A DNA stretch of 64,000 bases, taken from the NCBI RefSeq assembly GCF_001413925.1, contig NZ_LBMJ01000001.1:2644001-2708000 (forward strand), read 5' to 3'. This document shows positions 5,384-61,810 of this stretch, piece after piece (position 1 is the stretch's first letter; each line of letters begins with the position of its first letter). Source of the DNA: Nonlabens sp. YIK11 (GTDB lineage: Bacteria; Bacteroidota; Bacteroidia; Flavobacteriales; Flavobacteriaceae). The notes under the pieces were generated by a model. It was not told the DNA's origin and made no database searches. It saw only the letters and a list, made by a program, of their open reading frames with translations. Both the position numbers and the translations under genes were made by a program.

Positions 5384-5982
5384 GCCGCTTTATTTTTAGA
5401 GTTTCTTTGTTCTGCTTCTTTTATCATTAAGGCAAACTCTTTTAAACTCGTTTCCTTTGCTATTAATTTGTAGTTGTATTCCAATACTCTACCTAATTGG
5501 TACAGTTGAGCAGTAAGATCAAATTCCTTTTTTTCTGTTGGTTCTGGTAAAATCGCTTTCAGTTCACTGGTCCTGAAATTTATATTTGTCTCCTTAGCCT
5601 TTAATTGACGGTTTATACGCTCAATTTCTTGCTTAACATCAGCTTTAGGATCAATGTTTATCTTATCCTTTTTAAGTAACTTTAGTAATTCTGATTTTTG
5701 ATCATCTTCTAAATCACTATTGAAATAAATGTTTAGCGCCTTTGTAACGTCATTGTATTGATTGATAACGGCTTGTAATTGCACTTTTTTACGCCATACA
5801 ACCGTATCACTACCTTTGCCTACAATAGATCGGTACTCATCCATTATCTTATCCCATGCAGCGCCTAACTGCTCGTCCGTACCATTTCCCAATACCTTTA
5901 GATCGCCAGTATTAACCACTTTCGCGAAAGCTGGTAACATCAGATCATCACAATTGTCGATTATATTGTCTTGTGTAGCCAT
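5380..5982 (-). CDS. Hypothetical phage tail gene upstream of tape measure
   Basis: 200 aa, mostly helical and charged, with no recognised domain. It lies between the major tail protein and the tape measure, where siphoviruses keep their tail assembly chaperones, so a chaperone role is possible but only positional. I see no slippery heptamer at its junction with the upstream gene; they overlap by 22 bases in an ordinary way. Residues 20-24 (AFAKV) are encoded by a copy of the genome-wide CTTTCGCGAAAG palindrome, the only copy inside the phage. Confidence 0.8.
   Translation of the reverse strand: MATQDNIIDNCDDLMLPAFAKVVNTGDLKVLGNGTDEQLGAAWDKIMDEYRSIVGKGSDTVVWRKKVQLQAVINQYNDVTKALNIYFNSDLEDDQKSELLKLLKKDKINIDPKADVKQEIERINRQLKAKETNINFRTSELKAILPEPTEKKEFDLTAQLYQLGRVLEYNYKLIAKETSLKEFALMIKEAEQRNSKNKAA
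5919..5930. repeat. CTTTCGCGAAAG palindrome, phage copy
   Basis: Perfect 12-bp palindrome inside a phage tail gene, encoding AFAK. It is the only copy found in about 31 kb of prophage, against seven perfect copies in the host half. Confidence 0.9.
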
Positions 5983-6413
5983 TCTAGGATTCTGGGTTTA
6001 AGTAATTCGTAGTTAAGTTCGTATTGGTTGTCCTTTGTTAGTCCTAATAGATCTTTTGCGTTCTTCTTTTGCAGGAATGGGTGATTGGGTTTGTTTGTGA
6101 AAAATCTTAGATTCCCATTATTGAATAGTATATCTATGCTTTTCCATAGTTCGCCAGTAGCGTATGTGTTAAATGGATCTCCAGCCCTCTTGGGATAGCC
6201 CTTACCGCTAATTCCCTGGCTTAGTTCCTCTGTAAGTGGTTTGTAAACCCCTAAATCCTTTCCCTCGTTGTCAACGCCCTCAAACATTTGGCGTTCTGTA
6301 TTGAGTTCAATTATCTTATCGGATAACCTCTCTATAATGCGCTCCACCTCACTAGGTAATTGCTCATGCGCCCTAGAAACTGACTCGTATAGATCGCGTA
6401 TTGTTGTTCCCAT
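5961..6413 (-). CDS. Hypothetical phage morphogenesis protein
   Basis: 150 aa. The N-terminal half is an amphipathic helix region (EQLPSEVERIIERLSDKI), followed by a segment with GKGYPKRAGDPFNTYATG and FFTNKPNHPFLQKKNAKDL. This resembles, loosely, head-tail joining or tail-terminator proteins of the gp10/virion morphogenesis type, which often carry a short 'tG.L..si' element like TGELWKSI here. The placement after the major tail gene rather than before it is unusual. It starts 2 bases left of a terminator hairpin, so it may need read-through or its own promoter. Confidence 0.75.
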   Translation of the reverse strand: MGTTIRDLYESVSRAHEQLPSEVERIIERLSDKIIELNTERQMFEGVDNEGKDLGVYKPLTEELSQGISGKGYPKRAGDPFNTYATGELWKSIDILFNNGNLRFFTNKPNHPFLQKKNAKDLLGLTKDNQYELNYELLKPRILEWLHKTI

Positions 6414-6414
6414 A

Positions 6415-6454
6415 ATTAAAAAAAGCCTTGCCCCGTTCTAGAGCAAGGCTTTTC
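6415..6454 (-). terminator. Intrinsic terminator after the major tail gene
   Basis: On the minus strand AAAAGCCTTGC pairs with GCAAGGCTTTT around an 11-base loop and is followed by a run of T. It sits directly downstream of the major tail gene and before the next tail genes. The stem is the same as that of the terminator at 31411-31436. Confidence 0.85.
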
Positions 6455-6474
6455 ATATTTAAACTGATCTTAGG

Positions 6475-7377
6475 TTATGCCGTTACCACAACTTTAGCCG
6501 TGTTCGACTTGAATAACTGGCCTTCAGTAGTCGTATAGACTCCATTAATTGAGGCTGTAATTGCTTGGTCAGCGCTCAATGCTGGAACGGTCAACGTTAG
6601 TGTTCCATCGTCTCCAACTACTGCGGCTGTTGGTACAACTCCAGTAAACGTAAAATCCTCTAAGGCAATTGATGGAACTGTTAGATTACCATCCCATTTG
6701 CTTACGAGTTTACCAGTGATAGATACCGCTCCATCTGCTGGTGCGTCAAGAGTGATCTCCATCTGGTTGATACCTTCCAATTCAAGTAATGAGAAGTCCA
6801 ATTGGCTTGCATCGATAACAGATAGACCTTGGTCCATCTCCACACGATTGATAAGCTGCATCATTATTCCAGTCTTATTGGTAGTTGCTCCAGATGCAAA
6901 AGCGATCTTGGAAGCCTTTAATCGACCTAGTGTAAAACCTTTTCTTACTCCTGATTTTGAAGTGTAGAAAATAGCGTTACCACCAGCATCAACCAACACG
7001 ACATCATAAGCGCCTTGACTGTTGAGACTTGCAAGTACATTGTTGAATAACAATCCATTCACAAATTGGAACATCAACTTGTAGAGTCCAGAAGTTGCAT
7101 CTACTTCTACACCAGAAGAAAATGTTTCTACTTGATCCTCTCCAGATTGATCCTCAAATGATACTGGATCTTTAAGTACAATCAACTTTCCAGCGACTTG
7201 TAAAGCCCTAAGACTATCCAATGTGATATCCTCTGGTAGTTGTGTACCTTTTTTAAGCAAGAGGATTGCACCGCCTGCCATGTCTTTAAAAATAAACTTG
7301 CAATGAGCAAGCCCCGCACCGAATACGCCACTAAGGCCGCATTTTAGCGTGTTTACTATGTTTGTTAAAAGTGCCAT
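6475..7377 (-). CDS. Phage major tail tube protein (probable)
   Basis: 300 aa, rich in beta-forming residues, Gly, Ala and Thr. The last ~85 residues (VPSIALEDFTFTGVVPTA to the end) look like an Ig-like beta-sandwich, a common C-terminal decoration on siphovirus tail tube proteins. It lies between the head-tail connector genes and the tape measure and is followed by its own strong terminator, as expected for the most abundant tail protein. Its ATG overlaps the stop of the 55-aa gene upstream. The function is inferred from position and composition. Confidence 0.75.
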   Translation of the reverse strand: MALLTNIVNTLKCGLSGVFGAGLAHCKFIFKDMAGGAILLLKKGTQLPEDITLDSLRALQVAGKLIVLKDPVSFEDQSGEDQVETFSSGVEVDATSGLYKLMFQFVNGLLFNNVLASLNSQGAYDVVLVDAGGNAIFYTSKSGVRKGFTLGRLKASKIAFASGATTNKTGIMMQLINRVEMDQGLSVIDASQLDFSLLELEGINQMEITLDAPADGAVSITGKLVSKWDGNLTVPSIALEDFTFTGVVPTAAVVGDDGTLTLTVPALSADQAITASINGVYTTTEGQLFKSNTAKVVVTA

Positions 7378-7544
7378 TATTTAATGATATTAACTGATTT
7401 GTAAAATTCAATAGCGCCTGGAAGCATCGGGATCTTGTCTCCTTTGGTGAAACCATATCCACTACGGATGATCTCTTGGAATTTTCCCTTTGGCTTTTGT
7501 GGCGCTGCTACCTCTTTGGTAGACTTTTTCTTTTTAGTTGCCAT
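7377..7544 (-). CDS. Small basic phage protein, 55 aa
   Basis: Starts MATKKKKSTKEVAAPQKPKG and ends KSVNIIK. The N-terminal third is very lysine-rich and probably disordered, followed by a short folded part with RSGYGFTKGDKIPMLPG. It overlaps the start of the major tail gene by one base (TAATG) and lies 3 bases from the preceding gene, so it is part of the structural operon. No family recognised. Confidence 0.75.
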   Translation of the reverse strand: MATKKKKSTKEVAAPQKPKGKFQEIIRSGYGFTKGDKIPMLPGAIEFYKSVNIIK

Positions 7545-7547
7545 ATC

Positions 7548-8033
7548 TTATGATTTGCAGTTGTTTAAATAAGTTGCATCGATGGTCAGCGTTAAGGCAT
7601 CCCATAAATGAACTACGTCGTTATCTCCACTTGTTTTGTAGTTGGGATAGTCGAATACATCAAAACCGGTATTATCAAACGTAGCGTTGCGGCTTTGGTT
7701 GATACCTTTTAAGAAGTTCTCCATTAGTGGGTAAAGGATTGTCTTAAATACCAGATCCATCCTCTGATCGTTCATCAAATCGATTTCTTCCTTTGTGTGG
7801 TTGACAGCGATTATAAATTCTGATCTTTGAGAGACACGTTTTACCGAATAGTTCTTATTGTTTGGCATGAGCCATATAAGAGGATAAGACTTATCCTGAT
7901 GTTCTTCTAGATATCTATTGAGTTCATCCTTGTTTCCCCATCCAAAGACTGGAAACTGTACCCTATTATCCCCTAGGTTGACCTCTGACAGACCATTAAC
8001 CACCTTTTCCAATATGTCCTCTATAACTATCAT
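7548..8033 (-). CDS. Hypothetical head-tail connector or tail completion protein
   Basis: 161 aa. The sequence starts MIVIEDILEKVVNGLSEV and contains YPLIWLMPNN and a long strand-rich core ending DATYLNNCKS. This arrangement (short helix, then beta strands with a conserved 'P.iwl.p') resembles tail completion proteins that precede the major tail protein in siphoviruses, but the match is by eye. It overlaps the previous gene by 4 bases. Confidence 0.75.
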   Translation of the reverse strand: MIVIEDILEKVVNGLSEVNLGDNRVQFPVFGWGNKDELNRYLEEHQDKSYPLIWLMPNNKNYSVKRVSQRSEFIIAVNHTKEEIDLMNDQRMDLVFKTILYPLMENFLKGINQSRNATFDNTGFDVFDYPNYKTSGDNDVVHLWDALTLTIDATYLNNCKS

Positions 8034-8689
8034 AACCCAAAGGAATTAACGCGCTCATAGCATTTGTTTACCAGATTGCTATAAGTGCCTGGATTAAGTG
8101 TCTCGTAGTCCTCAATAAACTTTAATAGTGGAACAATACCGCCTTTAATATCTGAATTGTAGTAATCTAAAAGAGTTCCGCTCCTATACTCTCTAACTAT
8201 TGGATAGTGTTGATTGTAGTTATTGGATTGGTATTTAGATACAAATTCATTCCAGCGATCTTGGTATAATGGACCGCTGTCTACTCTTTCCGATCCCTTG
8301 TTTTGAAGTTTAGATACACCGCCTACCTGATAGGAGTATAGATCATCTTCTAAATACTTGGAAAACACGTAGTAGACAAGACAAGAATTTGCATCCTTAA
8401 GTCCATCCCATACAAAACTATTGCCGTCTATCTCATAGGTCTTACCATTGACTAGATCTTTAATCCAGTCGGGTGCGTCAGTATCTAACACACCCTCTGG
8501 ACTATAACGATCTTCAATGGCTTGCCACAAAGTAGGATTTAAAGCATTGATAAGTAATACACGCTCATGTACCTTAATAGCCTTATCCAAATCACTAACC
8601 GTGTCAGTCTCGTTTCTATTTCTAGATACAATCTGACCATTGGGAATGTGAAGCGATCCACTATTAAAATATGTAGCGTTTATTATCAT
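8030..8689 (-). CDS. Hypothetical head-tail connector protein
   Basis: 219 aa from the ATG at 8689, which directly follows the stop of the 48-aa gene upstream; a longer frame to 8737 would overlap that gene and is less likely. The product is mostly helical with several Trp and Tyr residues (LWQAIEDRYS, APDWIKDLVNG). Position after the major capsid gene suggests a connector or adaptor role. No domain recognised. Confidence 0.75.
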   Translation of the reverse strand: MIINATYFNSGSLHIPNGQIVSRNRNETDTVSDLDKAIKVHERVLLINALNPTLWQAIEDRYSPEGVLDTDAPDWIKDLVNGKTYEIDGNSFVWDGLKDANSCLVYYVFSKYLEDDLYSYQVGGVSKLQNKGSERVDSGPLYQDRWNEFVSKYQSNNYNQHYPIVREYRSGTLLDYYNSDIKGGIVPLLKFIEDYETLNPGTYSNLVNKCYERVNSFGL

Positions 8690-8690
8690 T

Positions 8691-8837
8691 TTACTTCTTT
8701 TTAGCTTTAGGTTTCTTCTCCTTATAAACTTCTGCAACTCCCTTTCTAATCAGGTTTGCAGCTAGCATACTGTTATCAATAACAGCATCTTCACCTTTCT
8801 TATAAACAGAATAATCCTTTTTAAAAGTTAGTTTCAT
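8691..8837 (-). CDS. Small lysine-rich phage protein, 48 aa
   Basis: Reads MKLTFKKDYSVYKKGEDAVI and ends with a basic tail KEKKPKAKKK. It starts 11 bases after the capsid gene's stop and its stop is one base before the next ATG. Small genes here in HK97-like clusters sometimes encode head accessory proteins, but nothing specific can be said. Confidence 0.75.
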   Translation of the reverse strand: MKLTFKKDYSVYKKGEDAVIDNSMLAANLIRKGVAEVYKEKKPKAKKK

Positions 8838-8848
8838 GGTTTATTGGA

Positions 8849-10081
8849 TTATGCTACCGCTGCGGATAACGTTGTTAATGCTGCATCGACATCAGTTACC
8901 TTACGGAAACCAGTTTTGTCAACCTCACGAATCAACAATAAAAGACGTTTTCTAGCCTTCAATGTCATTTCATCCTCATTGAATTGGTTGTTAACCATAC
9001 CTCTAGAGATAGCAAGTCCTGTTTTCTCGTAGATTCTGGCATAACGTCTGTCTCCAACTACGATAGCGTTGTCTGGTGTATTCTCATCAACTACAACGGC
9101 AAGACCACCTAGAGTACCGGTGTTCTCATCAAATATGTAGTTGTTGTTGGCATCTTTAGCCAATACCAAACCTTCCATAGTGCTAGAACTAACCAACATC
9201 ATGTCAGGACGATACTTAGATCCTCTTGAACGTGTAATGTCGTTTCTAACTTTAATAGCTAGATCCTTAAGGTTAGCCGAAGCGATACCGCTTGCAACTG
9301 GCGTATAGGCTGGAGAAGAATTGAAGATACCGTCAAGGTTTTGACCTGTATTATCTCCATTTACTAATTGACTGTCTATTTCAGTCTCTACGTTTACCGT
9401 AAGGAACATATCAAGTTCTGCTGCTGCTTGTGCCTCATCCTCGAAAAACTCCTCTGTTACTGGCAAGGTGTCTCCTACTTTACGCAAGTCTTTAGTGTAC
9501 CACTCAAAGGCTGCTTTGGATTCTGGGAAAGCTGCTCCTTCTGCAACCATTGCAGCCGCACGTACGATTGTAGCCTCATCCCAATCACGGTAACGAATAG
9601 TACCGCCATTGTTACTGTCAGATACATTCACCTTAGGTAGAACGTTGTAAAGGCTTCTTTCCTTTACTCCTAACTGTCCTATTTCTGGTAAAAAGAAACC
9701 TGAAGCGTTGTTAGTGATGGATCCTCTAGTGGTTAAGGCTTTTATCTCAACCTCTCCATGACCACCACGTGCGATGTCTTTAATTGCATCTTTCTTTTCA
9801 ATGAACTCGGCTGCAAGAGTTTTTACAGTTGCTTTACCACCTGACTTTAACTCGGTGATTGCTTTGCCTTGTGCGATTGCGCGATCTTCCAATTCTTTCA
9901 ATGCTTTGCTTGTAGCCAATCCTTCGAGCTTGGCGTTTTGCTCGTTTTTAAATGTTTCAATAGCCTCGTTAACAGCCGCGATTTCTTCTTTTGTAGCCGC
10001 TTTGTCAACTTGCTCTTTGAATGTAGCGATAGACTTGTTTAAGTCCTCTGCTATCTGCTCTGGTGTCTTGATTTCTGACAT
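8849..10081 (-). CDS. HK97-type major capsid protein with N-terminal delta domain
   Basis: 410 aa, typical for HK97-fold capsid precursors. Residues 1-115 are a charged coiled coil (KEEIAAVNEAIETFKNEQNA), matching the scaffolding delta domain removed by the prohead protease. The remainder reads as the capsid fold: RGSITNNASGFFLPEIGQ at the mature N-terminus, DTLPVTEEFFEDEA in the spine/E-loop part and RPDMMLVSS in the A domain. The protease gene lies 3 bases upstream and the portal beyond it, in the standard order. Confidence 0.92.
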   Translation of the reverse strand: MSEIKTPEQIAEDLNKSIATFKEQVDKAATKEEIAAVNEAIETFKNEQNAKLEGLATSKALKELEDRAIAQGKAITELKSGGKATVKTLAAEFIEKKDAIKDIARGGHGEVEIKALTTRGSITNNASGFFLPEIGQLGVKERSLYNVLPKVNVSDSNNGGTIRYRDWDEATIVRAAAMVAEGAAFPESKAAFEWYTKDLRKVGDTLPVTEEFFEDEAQAAAELDMFLTVNVETEIDSQLVNGDNTGQNLDGIFNSSPAYTPVASGIASANLKDLAIKVRNDITRSRGSKYRPDMMLVSSSTMEGLVLAKDANNNYIFDENTGTLGGLAVVVDENTPDNAIVVGDRRYARIYEKTGLAISRGMVNNQFNEDEMTLKARKRLLLLIREVDKTGFRKVTDVDAALTTLSAAVA

Positions 10082-10084
10082 CGT

Positions 10085-10855
10085 TTAGAGTTTTACTAGG
10101 TTAATAAATTGATTAAGTTGAAGTGCTTTCGCGGCTTCGGATTCGGCAAGAGTGTCTTTAGACGGCTCTTGTTTACTTTCTAGCGTTGGTGTAAGTGAGT
10201 TACTACCCATCAACACCGCGCTTATTTCTACTAATTTTGTTTCCCTTGCTATGAAGAAATAACCCTTTTCATCTGCTCTCTCTGGGTTTCCCAATAGTGG
10301 ATATATCTCGTTCCAATTAGCGTTATCTTCTTCGCTTTTAACTGCTGCTGGATTAACGGCAAATTCTAATTTTACATAACGCATACCTACGCTGTGCTGG
10401 TCGATCTCTCCGCTCTTGTACGCATTGTAGATCTTCTCGTTTAGACTCTTTAGGATTGATGTATTAGCAACAAGAGACGATGTAAACCCTTCTTTGTTTA
10501 CTCCTAGATCCTTCCATGCGATCTGGCGCTCTTCCAAGCTATTAAACTTCCCTACTTGCGCCATTAACTCAAACTTGTGATCGTGCAAGTGGAATTTCTT
10601 ACCACCATCTGAAATGGTTTTGCTCCAGTTGCCAGGCACATGAACGTCCTCGTGGCTATCCATCCAGTAATTAGTATTACCTATGATGTCGCGCGTAATG
10701 ATTCCATTATCTTCGGAGTTATCCGCTTTGGTTGCGCTTGACTTTACGACAATAGCAGGAGTAGACCATCCATCAGAAAACTTAACAGCAGCTTTCTTAA
10801 GGGATATCACCTCTTTTTTATTTGCTAGTATGTCTTTTATTTTCTGGATATCCAT
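10085..10855 (-). CDS. HK97-family prohead protease
   Basis: 256 aa. Caudoviral prohead serine proteases of the U35/herpes assemblin-like group cleave the capsid delta domain during maturation. Visible motifs are FHLHDH (candidate catalytic His), DQHSVGMRY (candidate nucleophile Ser) and KLVEISAVLMGSNSLTPTLE, the last being typical of this family. It is placed between portal and capsid genes, as expected. Confidence 0.88.
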   Translation of the reverse strand: MDIQKIKDILANKKEVISLKKAAVKFSDGWSTPAIVVKSSATKADNSEDNGIITRDIIGNTNYWMDSHEDVHVPGNWSKTISDGGKKFHLHDHKFELMAQVGKFNSLEERQIAWKDLGVNKEGFTSSLVANTSILKSLNEKIYNAYKSGEIDQHSVGMRYVKLEFAVNPAAVKSEEDNANWNEIYPLLGNPERADEKGYFFIARETKLVEISAVLMGSNSLTPTLESKQEPSKDTLAESEAAKALQLNQFINLVKL

Positions 10856-10943
10856 CTTTCCTAATTATTTCGTTGTTGTCGATCTTGTTCTGCTTTGCGG
10901 TCTTGAGTTCCTTTAACCGCTTCTTGGTTATCTTATCACTCAT
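10818..10943 (-). CDS. Small basic phage protein, 41 aa
   Basis: From ATG at 10943 the frame encodes MSDKITKKRLKELKTAKQNK and continues to RHTSK. A longer frame to 11012 exists but its first 23 residues look non-coding. It overlaps the protease start by 38 bases. Highly charged and helical; function unknown. It may be a real small gene or a translational leader for the protease. Confidence 0.45.
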   Translation of the reverse strand: MSDKITKKRLKELKTAKQNKIDNNEIIRKDGYPENKRHTSK

Positions 10944-11081
10944 GGTGTTATTATTTGTGTTCCTGCTGCCGTTACTTGGTAATAAACAGGTAGCCCTATA
11001 ATGTTTACACATAGTTGAAAATGAAAGAATAATACTCTAGATCTTTCTTTTATTGATCTTTTACGGCTGTTAGGCAAGTAT

Positions 11082-12314
11082 CTACTCATCGTCTCCAAAT
11101 GTTACGCCCATTGATTGAGCAAGTTCTTGTGATTGATCTGGTGTGAATCCAGCAGTTTGCAGGTTTCTATAAGCTGTACTTACATCAAGGAACTTCCTTA
11201 CCTTGATCTGCTCTATGTGCTGCATCGGTGCTAGGTGATCCACACTATACTTTAATTTCTTGTCTCCTTCATACCCAAAGTAGGAACTATAGGACCCGCA
11301 TATATCGGCTGCCATTGGTTCTGTAATCGTCTGTATCAGCGATATTTCAGCTTCCTTTTGGTTCTCGTACTTTGGATTGTCGAATATGGGTAATAGTGAT
11401 CTAGGTATATTTAAAGCTGCTGCAATTGCTCCTGCGGTGGTTTCCATTACTTCTTGGAATCCTAGATCCTTCATTGGGATATGTAAAGACTTCCATCCAG
11501 TCTCACCGTTTAGGAACATGGAACGGTTTTGCCCTCTTTGCATTCCGTATTGAGCGTTCTTACGCTGAATCTCTTGCTTATCGTCAGATCCTATCGGCTT
11601 AGCTATTCCTAACTCCTTAGTTTTCTTTTCACTAAAGAACATTTCTCGTCCGTTGCTCTTTATGATGATGTTCTGCGCTTCAAATGCCTTAAGCATATTA
11701 ACCGCAGGCATTAAAACACTATCCAGTTTTGACGGGCTACGCAGTAGAAAGTCCTCGCAGACACCGTTAGCCACGTCAAAGAATGGAATGATTTGAGATA
11801 CGTCGAAAGCCCTGTTTACGTTGTTGTCAATCTTGTACCTAAATTTCACTTGCCGCTCCTGGATCTGCTTTCTAGTTAGCAGCTTTGTCTGGAACGTAGT
11901 ATTATCATAGGTGATGTGCTTTGTATTGAGATTGTAGATGCTGTCAACGCTATCTATCTTGTCCTCAAAACCTTCAGCACCAATTGGCGCCTGAAATACG
12001 AAACCATCCGAAATGCGGAGAAAAACGTACTCTCTCCAGAAGTCCTCTTTTGATTGGTAGTCGTTAGGGTTGTTGATTAGATCCGTTAAGGGATCTGGTG
12101 TAGGGTTATCCAAATCTCCTATGTAGAACTCTGTTTGTGCCAACGACGAAGCAATCTTATCGATTAAGCCAAAGAGCAAAGGGTTCTTTAATGCAACGTC
12201 AAGGTTAGTATAACCGTCAAAGCTATGTTTCTGGTGTCCTATCTCATAGAAGATAGAGCCGTCGGTGTGCCGTGTAGCTTTAAAATCACCAAATAACCAT
12301 TGACCTAAACCCAT
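11082..12314 (-). CDS. Phage portal protein (HK97 family)
   Basis: 410 aa, close to the usual length of HK97-type portals. It forms the dodecameric DNA-entry channel at one capsid vertex. Typical features are an N-terminal region with NPLLFGLIDKIASSLAQTEF, the EDFWREYVFLRISDGFVF-like stretch, the central GAIAAALNIPRSLLPIFDN and the C-terminal helical tail. It lies between the terminase and the protease. A 205-base spacer upstream holds a terminator and a candidate promoter. Confidence 0.9.
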   Translation of the reverse strand: MGLGQWLFGDFKATRHTDGSIFYEIGHQKHSFDGYTNLDVALKNPLLFGLIDKIASSLAQTEFYIGDLDNPTPDPLTDLINNPNDYQSKEDFWREYVFLRISDGFVFQAPIGAEGFEDKIDSVDSIYNLNTKHITYDNTTFQTKLLTRKQIQERQVKFRYKIDNNVNRAFDVSQIIPFFDVANGVCEDFLLRSPSKLDSVLMPAVNMLKAFEAQNIIIKSNGREMFFSEKKTKELGIAKPIGSDDKQEIQRKNAQYGMQRGQNRSMFLNGETGWKSLHIPMKDLGFQEVMETTAGAIAAALNIPRSLLPIFDNPKYENQKEAEISLIQTITEPMAADICGSYSSYFGYEGDKKLKYSVDHLAPMQHIEQIKVRKFLDVSTAYRNLQTAGFTPDQSQELAQSMGVTFGDDE

Positions 12315-12362
12315 ATAAGAGACTTATAAAGAGCGAAGTTACGATTTATTTCTTATTTAGAA

Positions 12363-12390
12363 CGAATATAAATTAGCTATTTATCACAAA
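12363..12390 (-). promoter_or_regulatory. Candidate promoter upstream of portal gene
   Basis: On the minus strand TTTG (12390-12387) is followed after 16 bases by TATATTCG (12370-12363), one mismatch from the Bacteroidota -7 box TAnnTTTG. The spacer is shorter than the usual ~19. It lies downstream of a terminator, where a late structural promoter would be useful. Confidence 0.35.
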
Positions 12391-12425
12391 CTTTAACATT
12401 TTTGTGTTATTTATTTTGTATGCAA

Positions 12426-12450
12426 TAAAAAAACCACCCTTTTGAGGTGG
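12426..12450 (-). terminator. Intrinsic terminator between small genes and portal
   Basis: Minus strand: CCACCT-CAAAAG-GGTGG hairpin followed by seven or eight T residues. It ends the transcript coming from the 69-aa gene at 12520-12729. The bases 12461-12519 between hairpin and stop show nothing further. Confidence 0.8.
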
Positions 12451-12519
12451 CTTGCCGATCACGCATTACGCAATCTTTACTACTCTAACGCTTACCCTTT
12501 CGGTGGTCAGGAAGTTTGA

Positions 12520-12729
12520 TTATTGTTTTAAATCAAACAAATCTATGTCTATGTAATGGGTTGTATCTTGTAATATTTGGTATTCATTTACGCAAGTAAT
12601 CTTGCCGTCATCAATACTTAGATAGCCTATAATTTTCTCTTGGTATCCAAATGTTCTAGGCTCAAAATTTGCTGCTAAAACCTCTCTATCATCCACAAGA
12701 TTGTTTTTATCTATTTTAATCCAATCCAT
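12520..12729 (-). CDS. Hypothetical phage protein, 69 aa
   Basis: The ATG at 12729 overlaps the TGA of the upstream 52-aa gene; a GTG one codon earlier is also possible. The product is acidic (MDWIKIDKNNLVDDREVLAA) with KIIGYLSIDDGKITC. The opening 'W.kI..n.l.dd.eVLa' resembles the DUF551-type opening of other small phage proteins. Function unknown. Confidence 0.7.
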   Translation of the reverse strand: MDWIKIDKNNLVDDREVLAANFEPRTFGYQEKIIGYLSIDDGKITCVNEYQILQDTTHYIDIDLFDLKQ

Positions 12730-12887
12730 CACTTATTGATTATCTCGTTAACCTCTTGAATTAAACTGTTTTCAGATAACTCGTTTAATGAATCAGTTAA
12801 ATAACCCATTGAGATACTAACCTCAATACAAGCTGCTCTCATCTTATCGCCTATAGGGCATCTTTTGTTGTTTCTACTCTCTTCCAT
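12729..12887 (-). CDS. Hypothetical phage protein, 52 aa
   Basis: MEESRNNKRCPIGDKMRAAC, then an amphipathic acidic tail with SENSLIQEVNEIINK. TGATG overlap with the following gene supports translation. No family recognised. Confidence 0.65.
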   Translation of the reverse strand: MEESRNNKRCPIGDKMRAACIEVSISMGYLTDSLNELSENSLIQEVNEIINK

Positions 12888-12891
12888 ACCA

Positions 12892-13125
12892 CTAATTTAA
12901 TTTATCAAAACGTTCTTTTAGTTTAATGTACTTCTTAAACCAGATCTCACCGCCAGTCATTAGGCTTTTCTTGTGCCTCTCATCCTCTAACTCTGAAATA
13001 TAAGCATTAGCCTTACCAAGTTCAATCTCGACTTCTCGCAGCTTCTTTGTTAATGCTGCAACGGTTTCATCTTTACTGTACTCTCTTTTGAGTTTGATTA
13101 AAGTACGATCTACAAAGTCATTCAT
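12892..13125 (-). CDS. Coiled-coil phage protein, 77 aa
   Basis: Almost entirely heptad-like helix (AALTKKLREVEIELGKANAY). It lies immediately downstream of the large terminase gene, 4 bases from the next small gene. Function unknown. Confidence 0.65.
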   Translation of the reverse strand: MNDFVDRTLIKLKREYSKDETVAALTKKLREVEIELGKANAYISELEDERHKKSLMTGGEIWFKKYIKLKERFDKLN

Positions 13126-13236
13126 ACCACTAATTTAATGAATTTTAACCGATTCGGAGCACCGTATTAACTATTTGATTATCAATACTAAAGTTAACTT
13201 TCCCCACCGCGTGGATACAAATCGGAGCACCTATAT
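13126..13236. other. Non-coding spacer with 10-bp direct repeats after large terminase
   Basis: TCGGAGCACC occurs at 13154-13163 and 13222-13231, and CCACCGCGTGG (an inverted repeat) lies between. This is one of the few spacers in a tightly packed operon and sits at the terminase 3' end. A packaging-related site is possible but not shown. Confidence 0.4.
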
Positions 13237-14445
13237 TCACCCTTCTAACATTTCACGCCTAAAGATGGATAAGCCCGTTGTTGCATCAGGAGCATCGTCG
13301 TGTTTGATAGGTTTACCGCTTTCAGTCTTACCGCTCTTGGTGTATTGCATAATCTCTTTCATGTATAGATCATACTCGCTACCTTGCTCGTAGTCATTAC
13401 GAAACACTAGGTACTTCATTACATTGTAACGCTCTCCTATGATGCGCTGGTGCTTGTTTCCAGTCTCATAGATGCCTTGAACGTCAATAGATACCATGCT
13501 GTTAAGATCGTTGTAGAATGAGATCCCGAATGAGTTGGTTTCTACTATTACGCTATTCATCTTGTGCTGTTTGATCTTTTGAGCGGATGCCGGTACGGTG
13601 TATTCCATTCCTTCACCACTAAATAGAACGTCAACTATGTAGCAATACTCACCTATCACATAACCAATGGGAAAGCATAACTTGTCCTCGCCCTGGTTTG
13701 CCACGTCAATAAACCCTATTTTGGTTGATACGTTGTCTAGGTTAAGATCATCCATCTTGAACCTGTTGAGTTTACTAGGTGGAAAGGCAAGAGTGTCTGA
13801 CTGTAGATTATATTCACCTAGCCATATGTGAGCAAAATCTTCTGGATCTAACCTAGCCCTATCTGCTTCCATCTCATCGATAAGTGTTTGCGGTGCAAAT
13901 GGATTGTCAAATATGTTTACGTGGATCAGTACGCTGTTAGGTGGGTTGCCCTCGAAGAAATCATCCACGGCATCCGTTGGCATATTGGGATTCCAACTAA
14001 ACCAAAGTTCGCTATCCTGCGCTCTTATCGTTGGCCTTAATAGCCTTAGCGACTTCTTACTTAGTGAGTGCGCCTCCTCTACCCATGCAATATCAAAGCC
14101 TTCTAGCGATTTAATACTATCTGCGGTGTGGTCCTGCATCCCTTGGAAGATCATTATGCCACTACCGTTTACCGCTCTTATCTCGTTTAGGGTAATATCA
14201 AACAAATGAGATACACCCATTGAGCGTATCTTATCTTCAATTACTTTCTTTGCCGAAAACTTTAAACTCTTTTGGATCTCACGAATACATACGATTGATG
14301 TGTTTGGATTCATTACCATGCGCTCGACTGCATTTTCCGCAAGCGTGTGAGACTTTCCAGAACCACGACCACCCTTTACGCCTTTATAGCGTTTAGGCTC
14401 TAGTAGTGGTAATGCCCATCTAGGCGTTTTTATATCAAGTTCCAT
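13237..14445 (-). CDS. Phage terminase large subunit
   Basis: 402 aa ATP-driven DNA packaging motor and nuclease of the PBSX/Terminase_3 kind. The Walker A motif is GGRGSGKSH at residues 25-33, Walker B with catalytic Glu is DIAWVEEAHS around 120-129, and the C-terminal RNase H-like nuclease begins at IGFIDVANQGEDK (Asp249) and ends with KHDDAPDATTG. Length is normal. It overlaps the small subunit gene by 11 bases. Confidence 0.95.
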   Translation of the reverse strand: MELDIKTPRWALPLLEPKRYKGVKGGRGSGKSHTLAENAVERMVMNPNTSIVCIREIQKSLKFSAKKVIEDKIRSMGVSHLFDITLNEIRAVNGSGIMIFQGMQDHTADSIKSLEGFDIAWVEEAHSLSKKSLRLLRPTIRAQDSELWFSWNPNMPTDAVDDFFEGNPPNSVLIHVNIFDNPFAPQTLIDEMEADRARLDPEDFAHIWLGEYNLQSDTLAFPPSKLNRFKMDDLNLDNVSTKIGFIDVANQGEDKLCFPIGYVIGEYCYIVDVLFSGEGMEYTVPASAQKIKQHKMNSVIVETNSFGISFYNDLNSMVSIDVQGIYETGNKHQRIIGERYNVMKYLVFRNDYEQGSEYDLYMKEIMQYTKSGKTESGKPIKHDDAPDATTGLSIFRREMLEG

Positions 14446-14875
14446 GAGGATCTACAATTGTCCTAGTTACTTGACTTATGCTTTCTCCTTTAGTCGTGTG
14501 GTCTACACTATACTTGTCGCTGTACTTCTTAGGGTTCATCTTTGCAGCAACCCATTTACGAGCATCTACCCTCAACCTATCGCGCTGGATAACGTTGTGG
14601 TTAGTGATCTCCCTACCTTCTTCATTGGTAATAATATCGTTTTCGGTGCTATCGGCTATCTCTATGATTTCCTCGAAAATAACATCGGCTCTGGACTCCA
14701 TAGCACGTGCATGATCGCGCGCGTACTGTTCCGAACGGCTAAGCCATAACATATAACTACTTGTGGCTATACCGACCTCTTTACATGCTTTAGAGATACT
14801 ACTACCTTGTGTGATGAGCGTTATGATCTGCTCAACAAAAGCCGTCTTTTCTTCATCTGTATATGGTGCTGCCAT
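14435..14875 (-). CDS. Phage terminase small subunit
   Basis: 146 aa. An N-terminal helix-turn-helix (GSSISKACKEVGIATSSYML) is followed by a helical oligomerisation region (MESRADVIFEEIIEIADSTE) and a C-terminal part with RVDARKWVAAKMNPKKY, a signature commonly seen in terminase small subunits. It recognises the packaging site on concatemeric DNA. It overlaps the large subunit gene by 11 bases. Confidence 0.9.
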   Translation of the reverse strand: MAAPYTDEEKTAFVEQIITLITQGSSISKACKEVGIATSSYMLWLSRSEQYARDHARAMESRADVIFEEIIEIADSTENDIITNEEGREITNHNVIQRDRLRVDARKWVAAKMNPKKYSDKYSVDHTTKGESISQVTRTIVDPHGT

Positions 14876-14902
14876 CTTCTTACTCTTTATTGCTTGTTGC
14901 TG

Positions 14903-15121
14903 TTAGTTTGTTGGTGGTTCTGGTAATTCTTGCCAATAGAAAACACTATCCATTTCATCTTCTACATTATCACCAGTTTCCCAATTTATCCATTCTTTTG
15001 TTGTGGATGAATAATGCAGCATCTTAAAGTCGTTGTATCGACCAGAAATATGATCTCCTAAAAATCCCATTACTTGCTGTTTATCTTCAGGCAACCTATC
15101 ATTTACGCTTATCCATTCCAT
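14903..15121 (-). CDS. DUF551-family phage protein, 72 aa
   Basis: MEWISVNDRLPEDKQQVMGF at the start and SVFYWQELPEPP at the end match the DUF551 pattern (W.sv.drLPe ... W..lPePP) seen in many phages. Function unknown. It lies 27 bases from the small terminase gene. Confidence 0.85.
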   Translation of the reverse strand: MEWISVNDRLPEDKQQVMGFLGDHISGRYNDFKMLHYSSTTKEWINWETGDNVEDEMDSVFYWQELPEPPTN

Positions 15122-15123
15122 AA

Positions 15124-15324
15124 CTACCTTCTTTTGATTCCCTCGTTAGCCTCTAGCCACCTCTTGAACTTCTTACGGTGTACCTGGTATTCAAAGAAGT
15201 GTACTATTAGGTTTCTTTTTAATACATACCAGTCAATGGCCTTGTGCCCTAGTGATAGGATGAAATAAGCAAATACTAGTATTAGGGTTAGTGCTGCTAT
15301 TGTGTAAACTATTATATCTATCAT
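15124..15324 (-). CDS. Small single-pass membrane protein, 66 aa
   Basis: Residues 3-24 (DIIVYTIAALTLILVFAYFI) form one transmembrane helix, followed by a basic cytoplasmic tail. It overlaps its upstream neighbour by 4 bases. Function unknown. Confidence 0.7.
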   Translation of the reverse strand: MIDIIVYTIAALTLILVFAYFILSLGHKAIDWYVLKRNLIVHFFEYQVHRKKFKRWLEANEGIKRR

Positions 15325-15680
15325 GGCTTTTTGTTTAGAGTTAGTTCCTTTCCTATTGTTGAGTAGATATAGTTTTGATATTCGTGAACAGAAAAAATAA
15401 GTTTATCCATATCGTTTTCAAAACCGTCACTCAATACTTGAACATCAGCACATAGATTACCATTTGTAACTCTGTAGAAAACCATATCATCCCAACCAGC
15501 GATCCTTTGAGCGCCTAAATCAATCAACCACTTTTCTGTTAGTGGGATTGGTTCGCAGTAAGTGTCTCCCTCTGGAAAACCATCTATCTCGTCAATATCA
15601 TGACCGCAATCAATTTGATACAAGCCTTTATCAGCTAGCATCACATAGTTTCCAATTCTTAAATCTTTAGCTTCTATCAT
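15321..15680 (-). CDS. Conserved Bacteroidota phage protein of the 'LRIGNYV...PIPLTE' type
   Basis: 119 aa. The N-terminal DLRIGNYVMLADKGLYQID, central EPIPLTEKWLIDLGA and C-terminal VHEYQNYIYSTIGKELTL fit a small family frequent in Bacteroidota prophages and conjugative elements (its members typically end VHQLQNLYFALTGEEL). The function is unknown. It overlaps the neighbours on both sides by 3-4 bases. Confidence 0.8.
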   Translation of the reverse strand: MIEAKDLRIGNYVMLADKGLYQIDCGHDIDEIDGFPEGDTYCEPIPLTEKWLIDLGAQRIAGWDDMVFYRVTNGNLCADVQVLSDGFENDMDKLIFSVHEYQNYIYSTIGKELTLNKKP

Positions 15681-15781
15681 AACTCTGGGTGTCCGTTAAT
15701 ACATTGTGTTGTGCAATCGCAAGTGCTATAGGTTTGTGTATTGCAATCAAAGAGAAGTATATCCTCTTGGTCTTTTTTCAT
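15677..15781 (-). CDS. Cysteine-rich micro-protein, 34 aa
   Basis: MKKDQEDILLFDCNTQTYST is followed by CDCTTQCINGHPEL. Four Cys and one His in 19 residues suggest metal binding. The stop overlaps the next gene's ATG (TGATG-type coupling) and the ATG is 3 bases from the preceding stop, so it fits exactly between genes. Confidence 0.6.
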   Translation of the reverse strand: MKKDQEDILLFDCNTQTYSTCDCTTQCINGHPEL

Positions 15782-15783
15782 AG

Positions 15784-16098: not shown

Positions 16099-16127
16099 TC
16101 CCTATTCTTTTACGCAGTTACAGTTTT

Positions 16128-49695: not shown

Positions 49696-49715
49696 TTCGC
49701 TTTCGCGAAAGCGAA
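49696..49715. repeat. Palindrome TTCGCTTTCGCGAAAGCGAA, intergenic
   Basis: Perfect 20-bp palindrome in the spacer before the DUF2452 gene, same sequence as at 61791-61810. Confidence 0.92.
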
Positions 49716-50683: not shown

Positions 50684-52419
50684 TGAATCATTTCATACAC
50701 AGCTGCGTTTTGGCCATCTTATTCTATGGCTTATACCGTTTATTTCTTAAAGGGACCACCGGTTTTCAATGGCATCGTTTGTATTTGCTGCTCATACCAA
50801 TAGTATCTTTCATACTGCCATTGCTGGTCATACCACTGGATCAATCCCTGACCACGCCAGCCTTTTTAATGCCTGTCGAGATGGATGTAATGCCTGTCAT
50901 CATTGAGGCTGATCAACAACCTGTGACGCCTGCAACTCCTATAATAGAATGGACCAGCATCCTATGGATTACTTATTTCGTGGGGATAACAACGGCTGCG
51001 ATTCTGTTTATTATCAAGCTGGCACGTATTCAAAACTATAAAGAGCAAGGACAGACCATCTACCAAAATGGGGTTTACATCACAAAAGTGCACGATCTAC
51101 CTACGGCCTTCTCTTTTATGAACCATATCTATATCAATGACGCTTTCGCGGAAGCGAGATACGAACAAGTCCTATTGCACGAGATCACGCACATTAAACA
51201 GAAGCATAGTTGGGATTTGTTATTCTATGAGTTGTTGCGCATCGTTTTCTGGTTCCATCCAGTACCCTATCTAGCGCAGCGCGAACTTAAAATGGTTCAT
51301 GAGCATATCGCAGATCATAGAACGATCGCTACTTATGGCAAAAAATCCTATTACGAAAACCTTTTGAAGGAAGCCCTGGATTGTCCAGACTTCTCGTTTA
51401 CCAATCCATTTTTTAAATCCAAAACCATTAAAACCCGTTTAACCATGATACAACAATCCCAAAACCAGAAATTCCCATTCCGCAAGTTGTTGTGGATGCT
51501 ACCCGTTTTATTTGCAAGTTTGATTTATACGGCTTGTAGCACTGAACAGGAAGTGATCAAAGTGGAGCAGAAAACTTATAGAGTTGATGAATTACCTACT
51601 CTTCAAGATCATGTCTATGGGCAAATTGACTTTTATAAAGGTGTTACAGCAGATGAAATGGAGGTTTTAGAAAAAGGGAACGAGACTATTAAAAAGTATA
51701 TAGGTGATGATACCAGCAAGGAGAAGAGTTTTGAGGTTGCTAAAAGGATGTTGCGGGATCCAAAATTTCAGGAATATCGTAGAGTCATGGACAAAATAAA
51801 CGATAATGGGAAAACAATAGTACGTGACGTCGAGAACAATAATTATGTCTTAACTATCCAAGAGTATGAAAATGGAAGTCCTTCTTTTACGGGAACCGGT
51901 CCGATCGATCAATTAAATATGAGCAATGATGAAATTTCAGCTTATTTAAAAGATTTACATGAGAAGTACGGTAAGGCCGACGATGTGACCGTAGTTGCAG
52001 AAGTGGAGTTAGTGGAAGAAAAATCTGATATGCAAAATCAGGCAGTAGTTGTTCCTTTTGCAATTATAGAAAACGTTCCAACTTATCCAGGTTGCAGCGG
52101 CGATAACGCAGAGAAAAAGAAATGTATGCAGCAAAATATCACGCAGCTTGTAAAAGAAAATTTTGACACTTCCATTGCCAACAAAGTGGGGTTAAGCGGT
52201 AAACAAACCATTTCTGTTCAATTTAAAATTGATCAAAATGGCAATGTTGCAAACATTATATCTAGAGCCAAAGCTCCAGAACTTCAAGCCGAAGCGGCTC
52301 GAGTTGTCAACTTGTTGCCTAAAATGCAACCGGGAACTCAACGAGGACAAAATGTAGGTGTCATTTACGGCTTACCCATTATTTTCAATGTTCCAGAAGA
52401 GTCCAAAAAAGAGGAATAA
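50683..52419 (+). CDS. BlaR1-like M56 membrane peptidase with TonB-type C-terminus
   Basis: 578 aa. Three N-terminal transmembrane helices (about 4-22, 34-54, 95-113) precede the zinc-peptidase motif HEITHIKQKH at residues 166-175; a further helix lies near 270-287 (LPVLFASLIYTAC). Residues 290-470 are a periplasmic region, and 475-570 resemble TonB C-terminal domain (TISVQFKIDQNGNVANIISR). No penicillin-binding domain is present, so the signal is probably not a beta-lactam. Residues DAFAEA come from a near-perfect palindrome copy. Confidence 0.88.
   Translation: MNHFIHSCVLAILFYGLYRLFLKGTTGFQWHRLYLLLIPIVSFILPLLVIPLDQSLTTPAFLMPVEMDVMPVIIEADQQPVTPATPIIEWTSILWITYFVGITTAAILFIIKLARIQNYKEQGQTIYQNGVYITKVHDLPTAFSFMNHIYINDAFAEARYEQVLLHEITHIKQKHSWDLLFYELLRIVFWFHPVPYLAQRELKMVHEHIADHRTIATYGKKSYYENLLKEALDCPDFSFTNPFFKSKTIKTRLTMIQQSQNQKFPFRKLLWMLPVLFASLIYTACSTEQEVIKVEQKTYRVDELPTLQDHVYGQIDFYKGVTADEMEVLEKGNETIKKYIGDDTSKEKSFEVAKRMLRDPKFQEYRRVMDKINDNGKTIVRDVENNNYVLTIQEYENGSPSFTGTGPIDQLNMSNDEISAYLKDLHEKYGKADDVTVVAEVELVEEKSDMQNQAVVVPFAIIENVPTYPGCSGDNAEKKKCMQQNITQLVKENFDTSIANKVGLSGKQTISVQFKIDQNGNVANIISRAKAPELQAEAARVVNLLPKMQPGTQRGQNVGVIYGLPIIFNVPEESKKEE
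51141..51156. repeat. Palindrome variant in BlaR1-like gene
   Basis: CGCTTTCGCGGAAGCG, one base different from CGCTTTCGCGAAAGCG, encoding AFAEA. Confidence 0.8.
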
Positions 52420-57030: not shown

Positions 57031-58074
57031 TTAAGTAATAATTCGCGCCATAGTCATCAACTTATTCTCGATTTCTTGAACCTCATCCTGTGGAATGCTC
57101 AACTCTGTAATACCACCGCCAGCATATAGATAAATATTTGATTTGTCAATTTCCAAGCACCTAAGGTTGACATAATAATCTGCTCGTCGCTCCACCGGAT
57201 TTTGAATACCTATGTATCCTGTATAAAAACTGCGGTCATAGTTTTCATGGTTCCTGATGTAATCCAAAGCTGCTTGTCTGGGAAGACCACAAACTGCTGG
57301 AGTAGGATGCAATTCATTTACGACCTCATTAATTTTACCGTAATCAACAAGAACTTCTAGCGATGTTTTCAAGTGGAGTAAGGAACCTGCTTTGATAGTT
57401 TCGACATCTCCAACAACGGGTTTTTCACCAGTCACTTTTTCTAGTGCATTTGATATGAAATCAGTAACCAATTGCTGTTCGTTTTTCTCTTTGATTCCCC
57501 ATGGTATTTTGGGATCGGCAAGAGCACTTTTTGTACCTGCCAACGACATGGTTTTGAGCAATCCATCTTTGTAGGAAACGAGCGTTTCTGGTGTAGCACC
57601 CAACCAAGTTCCAATAGATGGGTGATGGAAGAAATAACAATTAGCTTTAGGATATTCATCCAGCAAATTAGTAAGAATTTTTAGCGAATCAGTACTGCTA
57701 GAAACAGTGTGCTTCAAAGAGAGCACCACCTTTTTGAGTGCTCCATTTTTTAGCGATGTAACTGCACTTTGCACTCTGCTTTGGTGCTCCTTTTTTACAT
57801 TTTCTGGCAAATTAACGGCAACACCATCTAAGGTTCTCCTTTTAATTTCCCATGAAAAGCTTTTCCTCACTTCACCAATGATATAAAACTGGTTTTCAGA
57901 TGATAAAAATTTTGATAAAACCGCACAAGACATTGTGTCATGTGGCGTTTCATGTAATTTTTGGGAGTTTTGATGGAGTATTTCTACGTTGGATTCTCCA
58001 CTTTTTCTTAAAAGTAAGAACGGCAGATTTTGATGTAGAAGTTCTTGTGTGTATGTGAGCAGGCTTTCGCGCAA
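57031..58074 (-). CDS. menF: Isochorismate synthase
   Basis: 347 aa, chorismate-binding family. AVTSLKNGALKKVVLSLKHT, TWLGATPETLVSYKDGLLKT, HLKTSLEVLV and PTPAVCGLPRQAALDYIRNH with YTGYIG are hallmarks of MenF/EntC. It converts chorismate to isochorismate for MenD. It is short but complete in the catalytic region. The likely start is a TTG at 58074, which lies inside a decayed palindrome copy (58063-58076). It follows menI by 11 bases. Confidence 0.93.
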   Translation of the reverse strand: MRESLLTYTQELLHQNLPFLLLRKSGESNVEILHQNSQKLHETPHDTMSCAVLSKFLSSENQFYIIGEVRKSFSWEIKRRTLDGVAVNLPENVKKEHQSRVQSAVTSLKNGALKKVVLSLKHTVSSSTDSLKILTNLLDEYPKANCYFFHHPSIGTWLGATPETLVSYKDGLLKTMSLAGTKSALADPKIPWGIKEKNEQQLVTDFISNALEKVTGEKPVVGDVETIKAGSLLHLKTSLEVLVDYGKINEVVNELHPTPAVCGLPRQAALDYIRNHENYDRSFYTGYIGIQNPVERRADYYVNLRCLEIDKSNIYLYAGGGITELSIPQDEVQEIENKLMTMARIIT

Positions 58075-58076
58075 GC
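58063..58076. repeat. Decayed palindrome copy at menF start
   Basis: GCTTTCGCGCAAGC, one change from the consensus. The change makes the CAA/TTG used as menF start codon on the minus strand. Confidence 0.7.
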
Positions 58077-60614: not shown

Positions 60615-60624
60615 AAATTAATAT

Positions 60625-61683
60625 ATGATACGTAAAACTATTCTTATCGCATCGCTTGCGATTACTGCGCTTACCAGCTGCACCTCAACAAAAACCTCTA
60701 GTACAGAATCTACGGCGATGACTCCTGTAGATAATGAACCTAGAATGATGGAAGATGGTAAAAACCCATTAGTGGTGAAATACATGAACACCATCACCGC
60801 AGCCGAGCTTAAGGAACAGCTGTATGAGTACGCCAGCGATGATATGGAAGGTCGCATGACTGGAACTCCTGGACAAAGAAAAGCAGTTGAATACCTCAAA
60901 GGAAAGTATCAAGTAATGAACGTTCCTGGTGGCGCCCAAAACGGTGAGTATTTCCAAAGCATTCCTCAAGAGTTTTTTGGAAAGAGAGAAATCACTTCAG
61001 AAAATGTCTTAGCGTTTATCGAAGGTTCAGAAAAGCCAGAAGAAGTATTAGTCATTTCGGCGCATCTGGATCATGTTGGTACTCGTAATGGCGAAGTGTA
61101 TAATGGAGCAGATGATGATGGTAGTGGTACCATCGCGCTTGTAGAGATCGCAGAGGCTTTTCAACAAGCTAAGGAAGAAGGAAACGGCCCTAAACGCTCT
61201 ATTCTATTCCTGCACGTCACCGCAGAGGAAATAGGCTTGCAAGGAAGTAAATATTATGCTCAAAATCCAGTGTATCCGTTAGCTAATACCATCGCAGACC
61301 TTAATATTGATATGATAGGTCGTATCGATCCAGCAAGAGAAGCAAAAACCAATTACGTTTACCTTATCGGAAGTGATATGTTGAGCCAAGACCTACATGA
61401 CATGAGTGAGAAGGCAAATAAGACGTATGTGAATATGGATCTTGACTACACCTATAACGGTAAAGATGATCCTAATCGTTTTTACTATAGATCTGACCAT
61501 TATAGTTTTGCCGAGAAGAATGTTCCAGTAATCTTCTATTTCAATGGAACTCATGAAGATTACCACAAATCAAGCGACACACCAGACAAGATTGAATACG
61601 ATTTGTACGCACAGCGCGCACAGTTGATTTTTGCAACCGCATGGGAATTGGCAAATGCAGACCAACGTCCAATGCTTAAATAA
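60625..61683 (+). CDS. M28-family aminopeptidase lipoprotein
   Basis: 352 aa. Lipobox LTSC near residue 18. Metal ligands are in VISAHLDHVG (His), NGADDDGSGT (Asp bridging), TAEEIGLQGS (general base Glu plus ligand), NIDMIGRI (Asp) and HEDYHKSSDTPDKI (His), so both zinc sites look complete. It is a periplasmic or outer-membrane exopeptidase. It follows the CarboxypepD_reg gene by 10 bases and ends before a terminator. Confidence 0.92.
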   Translation: MIRKTILIASLAITALTSCTSTKTSSTESTAMTPVDNEPRMMEDGKNPLVVKYMNTITAAELKEQLYEYASDDMEGRMTGTPGQRKAVEYLKGKYQVMNVPGGAQNGEYFQSIPQEFFGKREITSENVLAFIEGSEKPEEVLVISAHLDHVGTRNGEVYNGADDDGSGTIALVEIAEAFQQAKEEGNGPKRSILFLHVTAEEIGLQGSKYYAQNPVYPLANTIADLNIDMIGRIDPAREAKTNYVYLIGSDMLSQDLHDMSEKANKTYVNMDLDYTYNGKDDPNRFYYRSDHYSFAEKNVPVIFYFNGTHEDYHKSSDTPDKIEYDLYAQRAQLIFATAWELANADQRPMLK

Positions 61684-61700
61684 GCAAAATAGCTTTCCAT

Positions 61701-61730
61701 AAAAAAACGCACCTCATGGGTGCGTTTTTT
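61701..61730. terminator. Bidirectional terminator after M28 peptidase
   Basis: AAAAAACGCACC-TCAT-GGGTGCGTTTTTT, strong stem with A and T runs at both ends. Confidence 0.9.
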
Positions 61731-61790
61731 GTTTCTATGAAAATTGATTTCTTCTAAATCTTGAAGAACCTGTAGGATGATGATATGAAT

Positions 61791-61810
61791 TTCGCTTTCG
61801 CGAAAGCGAA
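61791..61810. repeat. Palindrome TTCGCTTTCGCGAAAGCGAA, intergenic
   Basis: Perfect 20-bp palindrome 15 bases beyond the helicase stop, identical to the copy at 49696-49715. Confidence 0.92.

Follow-up and report, generated by a model that had tools for sequence, protein, structure and literature searches.

A strict, evenly spaced palindrome in the chromosomes of Nonlabens as a possible tag of self-DNA

Why does one palindrome recur in the genes and spacers of a bacterial chromosome, and what keeps it there? The question is raised by a 64-kb stretch of the Nonlabens sp. YIK11 genome (the window, by which we mean this whole stretch). There the 12-mer CTTTCGCGAAAG occurs eight times exactly and three times with one mismatch, as an earlier sequence-only reading of the window had counted, and not once in 100 dinucleotide shuffles. 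The genome as a whole (G000; 3.26 Mb, two contigs) holds 776 exact copies and none of the same word read backwards, which bears out the earlier claim of a highly iterated palindrome far above chance. We propose, with a probability of about 0.42, that CGCTTTCGCGAAAGCG, the 16-bp core of this element, works much like an uptake signal, with a dimeric factor reading it and biased exchange of self-DNA maintaining it. Behind this proposal stand the abundance of the element, its even spacing, its dyad, its origin in place where that was testable, its conservation, its narrow taxonomic range, its scarcity in foreign DNA and the presence of competence-type genes; that the factor acts in DNA uptake is what we infer.

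Most counts were made in a sample of 800 kb of G000, taken as eight blocks of 100 kb. It contains 219 copies (about 270 per Mb) against 0.008 to 0.063 predicted by Markov models of order 1 to 4, more than three orders of magnitude above expectation. The element is by far the most frequent palindrome of 10, 12 and 14 bp in the sample, the runner-up at 12 bp having six copies. The longer form GCTTTCGCGAAAGC is reached by 212 of the 219 copies, and C stands at position 8 from the centre in 95% of the arms. The perfect palindromes of the window measure 12, 12, 20, 16, 18, 20, 16 and 20 bp, the four lengths given by the sequence-only reading, and six of the eight contain the 16-mer. Around this core lies a soft symmetric consensus that reaches about 24 bp to each side, a dyad of about 48 bp, in which tracts near positions 9-10 and 17-20 are rich in T/A, those near 13 and 22-23 favour G, and C is scarce on the left and G on the right. 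The consensus is much alike in 81 sites well inside open reading frames (ORFs) and in 72 spacer sites, and is thus a property of the DNA and not of a protein or RNA.

The core is strict. Where one half reads CGCTTTCG perfectly, its partner is free of mismatches in 382 cases and carries one in 41 and two in five, followed by a scattered background. One-mismatch 12-mers number 23 against the 219 perfect ones in the sample, 16 of them altered at position 3 from the centre, and those inspected mostly keep the flanks of the element. From this ratio the scaled strength of selection or drive comes to about 5.8, assuming the 36 one-step neighbours to be as likely as the perfect word; this is a weak force at any one site, so that no individual copy should be essential. 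Covariation between left and right flanks is found at position 9 (z 3.9; 1.5 in spacer sites alone) and not beyond it (z -2.5 to 1.5). The two halves therefore look independently read, as by a dimer, and long hairpin arms are not a conserved feature.

Copies are also spaced out. The mean interval in the sample is 3.6 kb with a coefficient of variation (CV) of 0.58, compared with 0.99 for random placement (minimum of 2000 draws 0.79), and only nine of 211 intervals are shorter than 1 kb where 52 are expected. Control words matched for count did not fall below a CV of 0.86 (the first 600 six-letter words) or 0.88 (124 seven-letter words). Over the first 100 sites the CV is 0.44 in G000 and 0.57 in 'Flavobacteria bacterium BBFL7', which belongs to the same genus. 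All eight blocks hold between 20 and 36 copies, those at 2.0 and 2.4 Mb together 44 of the 219 (P 0.052), and 98.7% of the sampled positions have a copy within 5 kb. Crude ORF calls, which cover 91.6% of the sample and often place starts too far upstream, put 147 copies in genes and 72 in spacers, an enrichment of about fourfold in the latter. Spacer copies are distributed over the four gene orientations as 23, 18, 16 and 15, roughly in proportion to the spacer length in each. In genes, the preference for the frame encoding AFAKA, described earlier as nearly universal, holds in the window for all seven genic copies classed, two decayed ones included, a further copy at an ORF edge being unclassed. 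Across the sample it is a preference only (AFAKA 46, RFRES 19 and LSRK 16 of the 81 sites).

How the copies arose can be followed by comparison with relatives. The sequence-only reading had taken them for short inserts in conserved enzymes, a view that fails where it could be examined: no gap lies near the site in 79 GcvT and 47 nnr outgroup alignments (menD, NlpC and BlaR1 gave no outgroup rows), and the change is a same-length codon replacement. As that reading had implied, AFAKA is absent at the orthologous residues of distant species, in the 14 of 79 GcvT and 14 of 47 nnr outgroup rows inspected. The gcvT copy is present in G000, G004, G020 and G008, which form one group in the GcvT tree. 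At this place the sequence has the same length in the remaining 17 genus genomes aligned and in 79 of 79 outgroup loci, reading DFAG in most outgroup rows inspected. With non-carriers of equal length and a single group of carriers, the alignments and tree indicate that the gcvT copy was gained by in-place replacement of letters, which cost a conserved enzyme three residues. Over all places compared (270 sites, 210 ortholog pairs), 204 pairs are equal in length. The copy is kept in 147 pairs, is off by one or two letters in nine and by 7-11 letters in 51, and three show indels; going by the rows inspected, the 51 all belong to the gcvT place and the three indels to copies split by a module described below. 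Insertion of a mobile palindrome is therefore rejected where it was testable.

Once gained, copies are retained. Between G000 and G004, which are 93-95% identical where aligned, 45 of the 68 sites of three regions could be aligned; 40 of these are identical over 16 bp and 43 over 12 bp, against about 19 and 23 expected by chance. In G019, 12 of 13 aligned places retain the copy, and identity to G000 falls from 0.955 in the innermost 8 bp on either side of the centre to 0.74-0.77 beyond. Identity near copies also exceeds identity 1.2-2.5 kb away in the comparison with G004 (rotation P 0.021), a gradient that is no more than suggestive.

The element is confined to few lineages. All 22 other genus genomes searched carry 297-879 copies of CTTTCGCGAAAG, while 33 of 36 other relatives have none and the remaining three have 1, 7 and 1. 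The 16-mer was found in 48 of 397 family genomes, themselves drawn from a larger group: four of the genus with 448-680 copies, G255 with 630, G239 with 153 and 42 others with 1-13. Among 395 Bacteroidota genomes it was found in 11, namely G000 and ten with one or two copies. In 79 other named loci of at most 21 kb each, belonging to the best 80 of 575 relatives that were compared, no palindromic 10-mer with G or C occurs more than three times. G255 and G239 belong to other genera of Flavobacteriaceae and share the same core with different edge letters: position 9 is mostly A in G255, where the genus has T, and mixed in G239, in which position 8 is looser too. Copies are evenly spaced in both (CV 0.72 and 0.66, with 7 and 10 of 1000 random draws as low), and one-mismatch words are relatively more frequent (25 to 55 perfect in G255, 18 to 35 in G239). 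In single-gene trees of GcvT and of GyrA alike, the non-carrier G193 joins G255 and G239, and the three stand apart from the genus. The deep forks of these trees are weak, and the distribution may reflect a single origin with losses or two origins. Shared positions could be looked for at few sites: 1 of 3 G000 sites shares its alignment column with G255 and 1 of 6 with G239, the latter in different frames.

Newly acquired DNA mostly lacks the element. Of ten ORFs from the prophage half of the window that were compared with protein families, six hit tail, head, portal, terminase, primase/helicase and integrase families; the remaining four fall into phage families without an assigned function. 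This half holds one copy, of the 12-mer only, against 8.6 expected (P of one or none 0.0018), and the other seven exact copies lie to the right of it, in agreement with the depletion noted earlier. The second contig of G000 (L353-L354, 29,179 bp), plasmid-like in its Mob_Pre, Rep3 and CAP12-type TIR domain genes, has no copy against 8.0 expected, and 71 kb from two phages recorded under the names Nonlabens/Persicivirga phage is free of copies where 19.5 are expected. A resistance island of other genera does hold copies. The low counts in other genera are often clustered, in eleven loci (L335-L345) from ten of the 42 such genomes, 71-99.9% alike in their shared parts. These loci carry copper/heavy-metal resistance genes, judging by one that is fully annotated and one protein of a second, and they bear the element within hosts otherwise holding few copies or none. 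A comparison of the islands with the window, the 800-kb sample and a set of genus stretches gave no match longer than 300 bp, so a donor within the genus is not supported.

In these features the element resembles known uptake sequences. Like the uptake signal sequences of Haemophilus and the DNA uptake sequences of Neisseria, it occurs in hundreds of copies per genome, is relatively evenly spaced, lies in genes with an enrichment in spacers, is underrepresented in new segments, is kept up at fixed places, has T/A-rich flanks and exists in lineage-specific versions, the edge letters of the other genera resembling dialects; for uptake sequences such traits have been reported or modelled (PMC7811141, PMC1939737). 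The host, in turn, belongs to a different phylum. We hypothesize that CGCTTTCGCGAAAGCG would be a lineage-specific signal that a factor acting as a symmetric dimer recognises in double-stranded DNA, across some 48 bp. A self-DNA fragment bearing one copy would be favoured in natural transformation, and recombination of such fragments would repair broken copies and spread new ones. Such molecular drive would disperse copies evenly, at roughly one every 3.6-4 kb, and newly acquired DNA would hold few.

Transformation in this family has been described. In R. anatipestifer (Flavobacteriaceae) it needs ComEC, DprA, ComF and RecA as well as four proteins of unknown function (PMC8459023), and R. columbina favours its own DNA in competition, no motif having been established (PMC7965970). 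ComEC was found in 18 of 18 genomes searched, G000 included, and DUF5689 in 30 of 30. The DUF5689 protein of G000 adjoins a CarbopepD_reg protein of 944 amino acids (L432:2871-7161), an arrangement described for two of the four Riemerella transformation genes (PMC8459023). Several observations weigh against uptake. Known uptake sequences are non-palindromic (PMC1939737), whereas our element is a palindrome with a 16-bp core. Its one-mismatch copies in G000 are fewer than gradual drive would lead one to expect, and rarer than for uptake sequences; likewise, no intermediate state is seen at the gcvT place in the 17 aligned genus non-carriers, which are 7-11 of 16 letters off. The identity gradient around copies is absent with G020 and G019. 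ComEC and DUF5689 occur in non-carriers too, and trees of DUF5689 and its neighbour (17 of 30 genomes) fail to separate carriers from non-carriers, which led us to reject either as the specificity factor. Since these genes do not track the palindrome, they show possibility only. Finally, we found no report of transformation in this genus in the literature searched. The carrier G022 has a DUF5689 protein nearer to that of G255 than to those of its own genus.

A strict dyad suits an internal dimeric binder equally well, and we therefore hold the uptake reading tentatively and regard as possible, if somewhat less probable, that a dimeric protein of chromosome architecture or segregation uses the element as its docking site along the whole chromosome. 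Such a protein would use its roughly 800 sites, one per 3-4 kb, for compacting, anchoring or organising the nucleoid, and selection on each site would depend on the distance to the next, so that sites become spaced out. The palindromic core, soft dyad and independently read halves fit a dimer inside the cell, and docking is also favoured by the coverage of the whole chromosome and the even spacing. Gaps of 29 kb (the prophage) and 19.5 kb are tolerated, however, and we know of no precedent for evenly spaced docking sites at such density. The parS and Noc sites resemble the element in being palindromes of 14-16 bp with TTTC/GAAA halves; the element differs in its hundreds of copies and in a TTTC-GAAA gap two bases shorter than that of parS, and a canonical parS exists in the same genomes. 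G000 has a single one, TGTTTCACGTGAAACA, at G000:C1:600555-600570, seven other genus genomes searched have one each, and parS is kept in 18 of 18 genomes searched. Each of 14 carriers has 1-2 ParB_N matches, each of 18 non-carriers 1-3. With no extra ParB in carriers and parS retained, ParB is disfavoured as the binder, and no other binder was found. What uptake and docking have in common, an element read by a dimer, evenly spaced and under selection or drive, is our firmer claim. We lean towards a palindromic tag of self-DNA or chromosome ruler in Bacteroidota, in which a 16-bp dyad would be read by a dimeric factor nearly 800 times in each genome at enforced spacing, in a system that has turned over between genera and kept its core.

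The remaining explanations would have the element act as a cutting or modification site, or as a hairpin. Closest in behaviour is HIP1 (GCGATCGC), a likeness already proposed by the sequence-only reading together with that to uptake sequences, and upheld here. Both are iterated palindromes in and between genes; HIP1 too is interrupted at a fixed junction by a small repeat and is patchy among relatives, and its spread by nucleotide substitution is the title of a study cited in PMC4390886. It differs in sequence, in length (8 versus 16 bp, the element having core CGCTTTCGCGAAAGCG and long dyad flanks) and in its density of 300-2700 per Mb (PMC4390886), above that of the element. Maintenance by DNA modification, mismatch repair or site-specific cutting, as for a HIP1-like site, would agree with the splitting of copies at a fixed junction, yet this junction differs in G255. 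TCGCGA and CGCG are unenriched outside the element (148 versus 153 and 1260 versus 1702 expected), so that no short methylation core stands out, a view resting on word counts, methyltransferases not having been searched for. We consider this explanation unlikely. Still less probable is that a type II topoisomerase prefers the element, making its staggered cut at the central CGCG and wrapping the flanks: the T/A tracts some 10 and 20 bp away from the centre and one split copy flanked by CGCG on both sides would fit it, but that duplication occurs once in ten and we know of no such enzyme for a strict 16-bp word. Least probable of all is that the element is a mobile palindromic repeat or forms a hairpin in RNA, for example as a terminator. 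Single strands of the element can fold (-6.6 kcal/mol, z -1.55) and many of the spacer copies listed lie near gene ends. Against this, the 3' flank is A/C-rich and devoid of a T-run, all four gene orientations are used with no excess of convergent spacers, the arms do not covary beyond position 9, and many copies lie inside genes. Rickettsia palindromic elements, which lie inside genes, and repetitive extragenic palindromes (REP) are likewise palindromes; they insert, whereas our element replaces letters in place where tested.

The splitting just mentioned comes from 864 kb of G000, where 14 pairs of half-sites CGCTTTC...GAAAGCG lie within 150 bp of each other; two control half-pairs gave none. 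In 10 of the 14 a palindromic module of 20-21 bp, similar to CCTGYCTGYCGRCAGRCAGG, sits at the junction TTT/CGCG. In the copy at 800k:81167 the module is flanked on either side by CGCG, as a 4-bp duplication would leave it, the only such case among the ten. An ungapped scan of the same 864 kb found 16 modules, ten of them in split copies by rule and four more beside decayed remains by eye. The same module occurs five times in G255 (twice clearly at CGCT/TTCG), three times in G004 and twice in outgroup loci, and was not found by ungapped scan in G019, G020, G239 and 17 other genus loci. Two module-split places are intact in a relative. From these alignments the element seems to be also a preferred target of cutting or template switching, with about 5% of copies affected. 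Separately, one copy (G000 block 2400k:89073) is split by a different, palindrome-rich insert of about 45 bp.

No earlier report of the 12-mer or the element was recognised in the literature searched, subscription journals lying mostly outside its coverage. The element is similar to known kinds, HIP1 and uptake sequences, and differs from them in its palindromic 16-bp core and 48-bp dyad. The sequence-only reading had seen the palindrome; it overlooked that the 16-bp core sits within a soft dyad, that copies are regularly spaced and conserved across the genus, and that a module splits some of them elsewhere in the genome. As a clean, conserved and evenly spaced genome-wide motif with related genomes lacking it, the element makes the function of highly iterated palindromes directly testable. 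If it is a tag or ruler, the phylum Bacteroidota would gain its first described uptake signal or spacing code. Were it an uptake signal, it would be the first there within the literature searched, and a palindromic one, and its specificity determinant could be sought in the transformation of Flavobacteriaceae. The copies of the window and the module-split copies are collected in Table 1.

Table 1. Copies of the palindrome in the window, the prophage half, and copies of G000 split by the module (positions refer to the window, except in the last row)
Feature	Position	Gene or spacer	Remarks
Prophage half, palindrome-depleted	1..31328	integrase 30168-31328	
12-bp copy, without the 16-mer	5919..5930	prophage ORF 5380-5982, minus strand	AFAKV frame
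Copy in NlpC/P60 gene	35314..35327	gene 35030-35842	left half complete, right half ending AAAGAT; AFAKD frame
One-mismatch copy near the C-terminal end of gyrA	37202..37213	gyrA 37095-39626, minus strand	AVAKV frame
16-mer (20-bp palindrome)	39797..39812	spacer between gyrA and next gene	perfect in 13/14 other aligned genus genomes
16-mer in nnr (Carb_kinase/YjeF_N)	43039..43054	nnr 42532-44058, minus strand	AFAKA frame
16-mer in gcvT	44708..44723	gcvT 44187-45272	AFAKA frame; in 3/20 other aligned genus genomes
16-mer (20-bp palindrome)	49698..49713	between annotated ORFs	
One-mismatch copy	51143..51154	BlaR1 (peptidase M56) gene	AFAEA frame
16-mer in gene of menD-like thiamine pyrophosphate enzyme	55137..55152	gene 55029-56699, minus strand	AFAKA frame
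One-mismatch copy	58064..58075	ORF edge	
16-mer (20-bp palindrome)	61793..61808	spacer 61683-61826	
Module-split copies, blocks of G000	400k:25076, 54756; 1200k:3911, 56632; 800k:14718, 40120, 81167; 2400k:11757, 19464; 100k:43258		

Two minor observations concern mobile DNA. In G033, a ParB-type protein of 616 amino acids is encoded on the same contig beside three copies of the element, an arrangement that we take to be typical of integrative elements. A scan of viral sequences returned at least 120 stretches with the 14-mer, a raw count with no chance level attached, and among the 80 listed nearly all have a single copy. The IMG/VR records L202, L171, L185 and L225 have two to four copies each and could be prophages of carriers, host DNA or chance occurrences.

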